From contig NZ_VFNL01000001.1 of NCBI RefSeq assembly GCF_006715565.1, positions 2,356,001-2,420,000 on the forward strand: a stretch of 64,000 nucleotides of DNA, given 5' to 3'. A program made the translations under genes and the position numbers. Every line of letters begins with the position of its first letter. Position 1 is the first letter of the stretch. The notes beneath the pieces are model-generated. The model saw nothing but the letters and a program-made list of their open reading frames with translations. It was not told where the DNA came from and did no database searches. Source of the stretch: Microbacterium sp. SLBN-154. GTDB lineage: Bacteria > Actinomycetota > Actinomycetes > Actinomycetales > Microbacteriaceae. Shown here in pieces: positions 13,374-15,656 of this stretch.

Positions 13374-13994
13374 TTACCGGACGGGAAGTGTCCGTGGGCG
13401 CCACGCCTCCCGGCGGGCCTCGAACTGCGCGATCTGATCTGCGCTGCGCAGCGTGAGCCCGATGTCATCGAGCCCCTCGAGAAGCCGCCACCTAGTGTAA
13501 TCGTCGATCTCGAAAGGCACCTGGAGGGGCGCGGCGCCGCCCTCGGCGGGGTCGACGAGGATCGCGACGCGCTCGACGAGGTCGACGGTCATCGTCAGCC
13601 CCGGCCGCGCGTCGACGGCCTCCCAGATGCGGTGCAGGTCGTCCTCGGAGATCGCCGCCGTCAGCAGACCCTGCTTCCCCGCGTTGCCGCGGAAGATGTC
13701 GGCGAACTTCGGGCTGAGGATCACGGAGAACCCGAAGTCGCGCAGCGCCCAGACGGCGTGCTCACGGCTGGAGCCGGTGCCGAAGTCGGGTCCGGCCACC
13801 AGGATCGAGGCCCCCTGGAACGCCGGCTGATTCAGCACGAAGTCGGGGTCCTGCCGCCAGCTGGCGAAGAGCGCGTCTTCGAAGCCGGTCTTGGTGACGC
13901 GCTTGAGGTACACCGCGGGGATGATCTGGTCGGTGTCGACCGCAGAGCGCTTCAGCGGCGCGACGATGCCGGTGTGGGTCGTGAACTTCTCCAT
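13374..13994 (-). CDS. leuD: 3-isopropylmalate dehydratase small subunit
   Basis: A 206-residue swivel-domain subunit of isopropylmalate isomerase, partner of LeuC. Family motifs: [13 protein letters not shown] near 20, [20 protein letters not shown] near 69 and a GNAGKQGLL loop near 103. It starts 1 bp after the leuC stop, so expression is coupled. A 72-bp gap separates it from murA; I see no strong terminator there. Confidence 0.96.
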
Positions 13995-13995
13995 G

Positions 13996-15510
13996 TCAGG
14001 CCTCCGCCCCGGTCAGGGTGTCGAGGCTCGGCGAGTCGAGCCCGCCGTCCGCGTCGTCCAGGTCGCTCGGGCTGGAGAGGGTTCCGCGTACCGCGGTGGC
14101 GGCGGCCACCAGCGGTGAGACGAGGTGGGTTCGTCCCCCCTTCCCCTGCCGGCCCTCGAAATTGCGGTTCGAGGTCGAGGCGCAGCGTTCGCCGGGAGCG
14201 AGCTGGTCGGGGTTCATCCCGAGGCACATCGAACATCCCGCGAAGCGCCATTCCGCGCCGAACGCGGTGAAGATCTCGTGAAGCCCCTCGGCTTCGGCCT
14301 CCAGCCGCACGCGCGCCGAGCCCGGGACCACCATCACCCGGACCCCGTCGGCCTTCTTCCGACCCTTCACGATCGACGCGAAGGCGCGCAGGTCCTCGAT
14401 GCGGCTGTTCGTGCACGATCCCATGAAGACCGCATCGACCGGCACGTCCTTGAGACGCGTGCCGGGCTCGAGCGCCATGTACTCCAGCGCGCGCTCGGCC
14501 GCGGCGCGCTCATTCGGATCGACGAAATCGTCGGGTGAGGGCACGACGTCCGACAGCGATACTCCCTGGCCGGGATTGGTGCCCCAGGTCACGAAGGGCT
14601 CGAGGGCATCCGCGTCGAGGAACACCTCGGCGTCGTAGACCGCGCCCTCGTCGCTGGGGAGCGTCCTCCAGTAGGCGACCGCGTCCTCCCAGTCACGGCC
14701 CTGCGGCGCGTGGGGCTTGTCTTTGACGTACGCGAAGGTCGTCTCGTCGGGCGCGACCATCCCCGCGCGAGCCCCCGCTTCGATGGACATGTTGCAGATC
14801 GTCATCCGCCCCTCCATCGACAGCGACCGGATCGCCGACCCGCGATACTCCAGCACGTATCCCTGGCCGCCGTTGGTGCCGATCTTGGCGATGACCGCGA
14901 GGATGATGTCCTTCGCGGTCACCCCGGGCTTGAGCTCGCCCTCGACGGTGATCGCCATCGTCTTGAAGGGCTTCAGCGGCAGGGTCTGCGTGGCCAGGAC
15001 GTGCTCGACCTCGCTCGTGCCGATCCCGAAGGCCATCGCACCGAAGGCGCCGTGGGTGGAGGTGTGCGAATCTCCGCAGACGACCGTGATCCCGGGCATG
15101 GTGAGACCCAGCTGCGGACCCACGACGTGGACGATCCCCTGCTCCTTGTCGCCGAGGGAGTGGAGCCTGACCCCGAACTCCTCGGCGTTGCGACGCAGCG
15201 TGTCGATCTGGGTGCGGCTGGTGAGGTCGGCGATCGGCTTGTCGATGTCGAGGGTCGGGGTGTTGTGGTCCTCGGTGGCGATCGTGAGATCCCGTCGGCG
15301 GACGGGGCGCCCCTCGGCGCGGAGACCGTCGAACGCCTGCGGGCTGGTGACCTCGTGAACCAGGTGCAGATCGATGTAGATCAGATCCGGCTCGCCGTTC
15401 TGTCCCTTGACCACGACGTGGTCCTCCCACACCTTCTCGGCGAGGGTACGGGGGCGATCGGGGATCGTGACGCCATCGGCGGGCGACGTGTCGATATCGG
15501 ACGTGCTCAT
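13996..15510 (-). CDS. leuC: 3-isopropylmalate dehydratase large subunit
   Basis: A 504-residue aconitase-superfamily subunit that, with LeuD, isomerises 2- to 3-isopropylmalate in leucine synthesis. The three [4Fe-4S] cysteine ligands are in [15 protein letters not shown] and [10 protein letters not shown]. Substrate motifs include [15 protein letters not shown] and [19 protein letters not shown]. The ATG at 15510 follows an AGGAGAA SD (15521-15515). Unlike many actinobacteria, there is no divergent NdgR/LtbR-type IclR gene beside leuC; a short leucine-rich leader ORF lies upstream instead. About 35 residues follow the usual C-terminus. Confidence 0.96.
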
Positions 15511-15514
15511 TGCG

Positions 15515-15521
15515 TTCTCCT
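15515..15521 (-). promoter_or_regulatory. leuC Shine-Dalgarno complementary to leader Leu codons
   Basis: AGGAGAA on the minus strand, 4 nt before the leuC ATG. It is perfectly complementary over 7 nt to TTCTCCT in the leader-peptide Leu codons at 15602-15596, extendable by one G-U pair, so the two could base-pair in the transcript. Confidence 0.45.
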
Positions 15522-15570
15522 CGGGAAGGGGATCAAGCCCGCGACGAACTCCGCGACGAGAGAGGCCTGG

Positions 15571-15618
15571 TTACGAGGTCTCGCCGCGGCCGCTAAGGAG
15601 AAGGCGAGCGATCCGCAC
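15571..15618 (-). CDS. Putative leucine leader peptide of leuCD
   Basis: A 15-residue ORF, MRIARLLLSGRGETS then TAA, starting at GTG 15618 and ending 60 nt before leuC. Three consecutive Leu codons are CTT, CTC, CTT; CTT is rare in DNA this GC-rich. A TACTCT hexamer (15630-15625) lies 6 nt before the GTG, and TTGACC is further upstream at 15656-15651 (20-bp spacing, longer than ideal), so the mRNA would begin at the leader start codon. The end of the ORF can pair with sequence downstream: GCGGCGAGA with TCTCGTCGC, nine pairs including one G-U. Ribosome-mediated attenuation of leucine genes is known in actinobacteria; this instance is my inference. Confidence 0.6.
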   Translation of the reverse strand: MRIARLLLSGRGETS

Positions 15619-15624
15619 CGGGTC

Positions 15625-15656
15625 AGAGTACCACCGGGTGCCGCGCACGCGGTCAA
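15625..15656 (-). promoter_or_regulatory. Putative promoter of leader-leuCD
   Basis: TTGACC (15656-15651) and TACTCT (15630-15625) on the minus strand with a 20-bp spacer and TGG just before the -10. It overlaps the end of terC. Confidence 0.45.

Follow-up and report, generated by a model that had tools for sequence, protein, structure and literature searches.

Does the short open reading frame (ORF) ahead of leuC in Microbacterium sp. SLBN-154 regulate leuC by pairing its own leucine codons with the leuC Shine-Dalgarno (SD) region? The locus lies in a window of 64,000 nucleotides, by which we mean the whole stretch of DNA analyzed, and a first-pass annotation had proposed that a ribosome stalled on these codons would keep them from covering the SD. 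The gene upstream of leuC encodes a TerC-family protein; the features of the locus and of its relatives are collected in Table 1.

A leucine leader upstream of leuC

The leader codons, in order, are GTG CGG ATC GCT CGC CTT CTC CTT AGC GGC CGC GGC GAG ACC TCG TAA (15618-15571, minus strand), exactly as the first-pass annotation had given them for the ORF with CTT-CTC-CTT. Its remark that CTT is a rare codon was also borne out: across the stretches of leuC genes that we counted, CTT makes up 2.3% of Leu codons (47 of 2018). The motif TACTCT ends six bases ahead of the leader GTG, a position suggesting that transcription begins at this GTG or right beside it, so that the mRNA would be leaderless; a simple promoter scan found no -35/-10 pair near leuC. 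In an Rfam scan of the window, three tRNAs alone reached gathering scores and the best hit near leuC had an E-value of only 4.5. A pattern search for the leader in the same genome was too loose to be used (91 forward and 97 reverse matches, with the known site not among the matches listed).

As claimed, TTCTCCT (15602-15596) is complementary to AGGAGAA (15521-15515) in the leuC SD, and the helix between Leu run and SD (P0) reaches 8 bp when one G-U pair is counted (TTCTCCTT/GAGGAGAA). The pairing reported between the ORF end and sequence downstream is present as well, in the form of a 10-bp stem (P1) and not the nine pairs described. When the leader RNA is folded without constraints, its minimum-energy structure includes P1 as well as the Leu-run/SD helix. 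Folding energy was ordinary for the composition (z -0.85, 44 of 200 shuffles equal or better), and single-sequence folding energy is unconvincing alone. Among 5000 random 18-mers from the window, 92 reached an 8-pair run with the leuC SD and 693 reached the duplex energy of Leu run and SD. The match at this single site is no more than moderately surprising and not convincing alone; the comparative evidence is the strong part. A second CGTCGCGG directly 3' of P1 (15546-15539, minus strand) could pair instead with the P1 5' arm; it is present in many Microbacterium leuC elements and decayed elsewhere.

Table 1. Positions of the leader features, the leucine genes and the related loci. Positions are those of the window unless a locus is named.
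Feature	Position	Strand	Basis
leuD, small subunit	13374..13994	-	TIGR00171 183 bits, cut-off 116
leuC, 3-isopropylmalate dehydratase large subunit	13996..15510	-	TIGR00170 739 bits, cut-off 560
leuC SD region GAGGAGAA, P0 3' arm	15515..15522	-	pairing tests, fold
P2 (pseudoknot) 3' arm GGCTTG	15534..15539	-	segment test in relatives
P1 3' arm CTCGTCGCGG	15551..15560	-	alignment, fold
P2 (pseudoknot) 5' arm CAGGCC, in P1 loop	15564..15569	-	pairing with 15539-15534 by eye; loop x downstream test in relatives
Leader ORF, peptide MRIARLLLSGRGETS, 15 residues, GTG start, TAA stop in P1 loop	15571..15618	-	sequence
P1 5' arm CCGCGGCGAG	15580..15589	-	alignment, fold
Three Leu codons CTT CTC CTT; 15602-15595 is the anti-SD arm (P0 5' arm)	15595..15603	-	codon counts, pairing tests in relatives
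-10-like TACTCT, with TGG just before it (15633-15631)	15625..15630	-	sequence; TA...T placement in relatives
LEU element at leuA of the same genome	L149:3223-3342	-	perfect 9-bp Leu-run/SD match
leuB-associated loci	L276, L280, L282, L285, L289, L291, L293, L295, L296, L298, L303, L305, L306, L308, L311, L312, L313		among matches listed

Distribution of the element

leuC was matched in 58 of 59 genomes of the same genus, one genome having no leuC match, and we found leader and P1 at all 58 loci (one per genome; for genome G055 the second-listed leuC match was taken, not the best-scoring one). Among 80 named leuC loci, 19 carry the element, belonging to Microbacterium, Agromyces, Leifsonia, Leucobacter, Rathayibacter, Glaciibacter, Terrimesophilobacter, Cryobacterium and a Microbacteriaceae metagenome assembly. 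The other 61 gave no convincing covariance-model match (the best, at 18.1 bits and E 0.013, lay over 1.5 kb away from leuC); they include loci from Curtobacterium, Frigoribacterium, Agrococcus and Salinibacterium, which we take to be Microbacteriaceae too, and from Arthrobacter, Streptomyces and Mycobacterium.

We searched 60 Microbacteriaceae genomes, one per genus, with covariance model R1, built from 44 leuC elements and the leuA element of the window's own genome (45 training rows), and obtained 102 matches in 57 genomes. The next gene was leuC after 40 matches and leuA after 61, so that a leuC-based model recovers leuA elements across the family, indicating homology between the two. The one match followed by neither gene, L250 (25.6 bits), has no leu gene behind it at all, and we discounted it as probably a false positive. 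The element is thus found at leuA in 57 of the 60 genomes and at leuC in 40, with all family genomes in the denominator irrespective of leuC gene presence; each of the 40 has the leuA element as well. Sampling across the class gave a match in 131 of 148 genomes; the 69 class loci classified among the matches listed comprised 49 at leuA, 17 at leuB, two at leuC and one cut by a contig end.

The companion leuA element of the window's genome scores 81.3 bits with R1, for which it is itself a training row. Its leader encodes MRAGLLLLLSRRGEASI, and its CTTCTTCTC pairs perfectly over 9 bp with its own SD GAGAAGAAG. In another genome (G069), the leuC and leuA leaders both encode MLFGLLLLSCRDES.

Evidence for translation of the leader

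In 174 of 177 elements a start codon that shares the frame of the Leu run lies 5-7 nt past TA...T; the remaining three have none there, and no element has one only out of frame. The frame is kept although the distance from start to P1 varies. All 176 elements having a start also have a stop codon within the P1 loop, placed 18 nt (103 elements), 21 nt (5), 24 nt (65), 27 nt (2) or 30 nt (1) after the last Leu codon and never closer. By our rule L174 has no start codon and L225 no CDS start, and a few CDS starts chosen by rule that look wrong (e.g. L198 and L234) were retained.

Codon choice was counted over the 172 distinct elements among the 176. Codons -2 to -4 before P1 encode Leu in 505 of 516 cases, and of the eight possible all-pyrimidine codons these positions use CTT 309 times, CTC 182 times and CCC once. 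Leu codons further upstream include CTG in 32 of 61 cases at position -5 and CTG or TTG in 31 of 41 at position -8.

Covariation between the Leu codons and the Shine-Dalgarno

In an alignment of 100 rows that was fitted to the P1 helix itself, 99.3% of P1 cells are paired, with changes on both sides in 4 of 10 pairs (33 cells) and a covariation score reached by none of 500 shuffles; slid versions of P1 are 25-68% paired. For pairing of the Leu run with the SD we used 97 one-per-genus elements, leaving out L174, L225, L150 (the window leuC element) and L183 (which resembles L045). Elements paired more stably with their own SD than with those of others (-9.17 versus -8.07 kcal/mol, z -5.6, 0 of 5000 shuffles). 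Controls in this set were non-significant: leader start x SD was reached by 2175 of 5000 shuffles, Leu run x upstream stretch by 505, Leu run x CDS start by 4346 and loop x SD by 602. The loop paired with the P2 segment (z -4.2, 0 of 5000), and pairing of the Leu run with the P2 segment was also significant (z -2.8, 16 of 5000).

Among 76 leuC loci from close relatives, the control pairing of leader start with SD (z -2.8, 15 of 5000) came near that of Leu run with SD (z -3.1, 8 of 5000). Because such control pairings are significant, shared ancestry contributes to the Leu run x SD signal. The window leuC element is in neither of these pairing sets. Within 39 two-copy genomes, own pairing was better than cross pairing in 25 and worse in 12 (Wilcoxon p=0.0004). 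The window's genome showed no such advantage of own over cross pairing between its leuA and leuC parts. GGAG in the SD is more frequent where position -3 is CTC (27 of 49) than where it is CTT (9 of 45; p=0.0006, or p=0.07 for leuC alone). We also tried whether the base following the last Leu codon varies with GAAG in the SD, and rejected this (p=0.018 for leuC, 0.71 for leuA and 0.11 for the combined genus set). The ORF and its complementarity to the SD, whose conservation in relatives the first-pass annotation had suggested checking, are therefore both kept and vary together.

Relation to known systems

Direct occlusion of the SD by the sensing codons had been thought not to be a described design. 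That is wrong: Seliverstov et al. (2005; PMC1262725), in their description of the LEU element upstream of actinobacterial leuA, give a Leu-rich leader, a pseudoknot and a base stem between Leu codons and SD, and an account of upstream ORFs (uORFs) that hide an SD by pairing until stalling frees it, citing cysteine genes, is given in PMC13236596. At the window locus we found a leader ORF with a run of Leu codons, a Leu codon/SD base stem (8 bp, present in the minimum-energy fold and covarying in relatives) and a pseudoknot, the latter indicated by P1 covariation and the loop x downstream test in relatives and by eye for P2 of the window. Like the published element it shows no classical terminator; it differs in standing before leuC and not leuA, and the 2005 paper favors a bound protein. 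As the next gene is leuC, we call it a leuC variant and not a leuA-type member.

The LeuL1 leader of Streptomyces lividans leuA (MRFGLLLLSCRGEGL) is the same kind of peptide and is reported in PMC8079986 to be leaderless by transcriptome data and to have no typical terminator, but it belongs to leuA of another family. Mycobacterial cysteine-responsive leaderless ORFs (Canestrari 2020, via PMC13236596), compared here by citation alone, resemble the element in that a stalled ribosome frees an SD hidden by the uORF, and differ in amino acid and genes. A word search of the text of PMC1262725 did not return leuC, and no leuC element appeared in the titles and abstract openings of the literature searched, with subscription papers mostly outside its scope. 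What is new is the gene, leuC, together with the comparative evidence; the design itself was already known. The leuA element is thereby extended to leuC, and across genera the sensing codons are seen to covary with the SD that they can mask.

A proposed mechanism and its alternatives

We consider it probable that a LEU-type translational attenuator precedes leuC. The element observed is genuine and its conservation good, the mechanism is likely, and direct SD masking by the sensing codons is its best reading. The first-pass annotation had favored the same masking; it had missed the P2 helix and the homologous leuA element. In the chain of events that we infer, comprising transcription start, leader translation, stalling and induction, the mRNA would have its 5' end at the GTG or adjacent to it, and its leader would be translated by a ribosome without an SD. 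With leucyl-tRNA plentiful, the ribosome would run on to the P1 loop, where the stop codon lies no less than 18 nt past the last Leu codon, and leave the Leu codons free; the RNA would then close through the Leu-run/SD stem, P1 and pseudoknot P2, turning leuC translation off. With leucyl-tRNA short, a ribosome held on the Leu codons would cover them and the beginning of P1, and the SD would stay open. A ribosome covers about 15 nt upstream of its P site, and with this coverage a terminating ribosome would just free the Leu codons while a stalled one would cover them.

Computationally, the SD is predicted to be hidden by pairing with the uORF, as in uORF translation attenuation. In a model that omits the pseudoknot, predicted mean SD openness for 115 leuC elements was 0.15 in free RNA, 0.43-0.45 with a ribosome stalled on the Leu codons, 0.29 with one at the stop and 0.26 with one near the start. 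The corresponding predictions were 0.17, 0.40-0.52, 0.21 and 0.40 for 60 leuA elements, and 0.02, 0.26-0.30, 0.02 and 0.25 for the window. A Leu stall is thus predicted to differ from a ribosome at the stop, but an early ribosome would open the SD too, most for leuA. This early opening counts against the attenuator, as do the ordinary fold energy, the significant control pairings, the lack of an own-pairing advantage in the window's genome and the leuA leader mutants of Streptomyces coelicolor, which according to PMC1262725 (its ref. 22) do not behave as classical attenuation would predict.

Control by a regulatory protein that binds the pseudoknot and sets the SD stem open or shut, with the leader ORF no sensor, is in our judgment unlikely. 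It corresponds to the idea preferred for leuA in the 2005 paper (PMC1262725), whose authors doubted a mechanism based on leader translation and suggested that a helicase-like protein binds, and it would fit the conservation of P1 and P2 beyond what the Leu/SD stem alone requires. However, frame, start, stop and Leu identity are all kept, none of which a bare binding site needs, and Leu is chosen over other pyrimidine codons (CTT or CTC 491 times and any other all-pyrimidine codon once, of 516).

Transcription attenuation, classical or Rho-dependent, in which stalling decides termination before leuC, is more doubtful still. Leader-peptide attenuators of the classical type have been predicted for trp and leuS of Actinobacteria (PMC1262725), but a terminator scan found no terminator-like site between leader and leuC to serve as the intrinsic terminator of a classical attenuator, and here the SD itself is part of the covarying stem. 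Lastly, it is highly improbable that CTT and CTC are used only because their tRNA is a good sensor, with codons rich in C and T matching a purine-rich SD incidentally. In 171 of 172 elements the last Leu codon is CTT, though CTC would often pair equally, and CTT is rare in the genes counted, but upstream Leu codons of the same leaders are often CTG or TTG, matched SDs pair better than others and CTC at -3 tracks GGAG.

If masking by the sensing codons holds, sensor and mask are the same, and a change of the Leu codons should therefore derepress, not abolish induction. Such derepression could explain the non-classical behavior of the old leuA mutants. Two natural copies with different Leu-run/SD pairs in one genome make the unsettled leuA mechanism testable.

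The regulator NdgR

In other Actinobacteria, NdgR and its orthologues (NdgR/LtbR, IclR-type) are described as adjoining and controlling leuCD (PMC4340878); unlike the RNA element proposed here, NdgR/LtbR is a DNA-binding protein. Using the IclR-type protein divergent from Pseudarthrobacter leuC as query, we found matches in 20 of 20 chosen genomes outside Microbacteriaceae (E 1.6e-58 or better). No clear orthologue was found in the 60 Microbacteriaceae genomes, where one genome had a match at E <= 1e-25 (41% identity, 3.9e-28) resembling the second-best hit elsewhere (39%, 1.6e-26). This suggests RNA control for a family in which the protein that usually regulates leuCD was not found. Because the absence is family-wide and the leuC element occurs in 40 of the 60 genomes, a tie between the element and loss of NdgR is suggestive only.

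leuB- and leuA-associated relatives

Genomes of other families in the class have a second match, which stands upstream of leuB, with the same P1 and the same placement of start and stop; leuB was identified at the 17 loci by reading, 3 of the 17 being checked. Leader codons at these loci are a mixture of Val, Ile and Leu (e.g. MRSVYVLIDCRGGA and MQWSVRILSCRGGAR), suggesting that the leuB leader may be a relative of the LEU element that reads branched-chain amino acids. We found no such leuB-associated leader in the literature searched. Between leader and leuB, several loci (L291, L295, L296 and others) have a small ORF, roughly 30-50 codons long, whose ending they share (e.g. ALQEAMDRRDNGGETGH); no Pfam or NCBIfam model matched four examples.

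We give an even chance to a broader picture in which one transportable translational switch, with sensing codons serving as anti-SD, has been used over several branched-chain genes of Actinobacteria: with Leu codons at leuA, as a Microbacteriaceae copy at leuC where NdgR is missing, and as a Val/Ile/Leu version ahead of a small ORF at leuB. Second leuA genes with LEU elements of their own are found at L243, L247, L248 and L249 in the family and at L286, L290 and L300 in the class, and in several of these elements both arms of P1 are altered (CCACGGCGGG, matched by the 3' arm).
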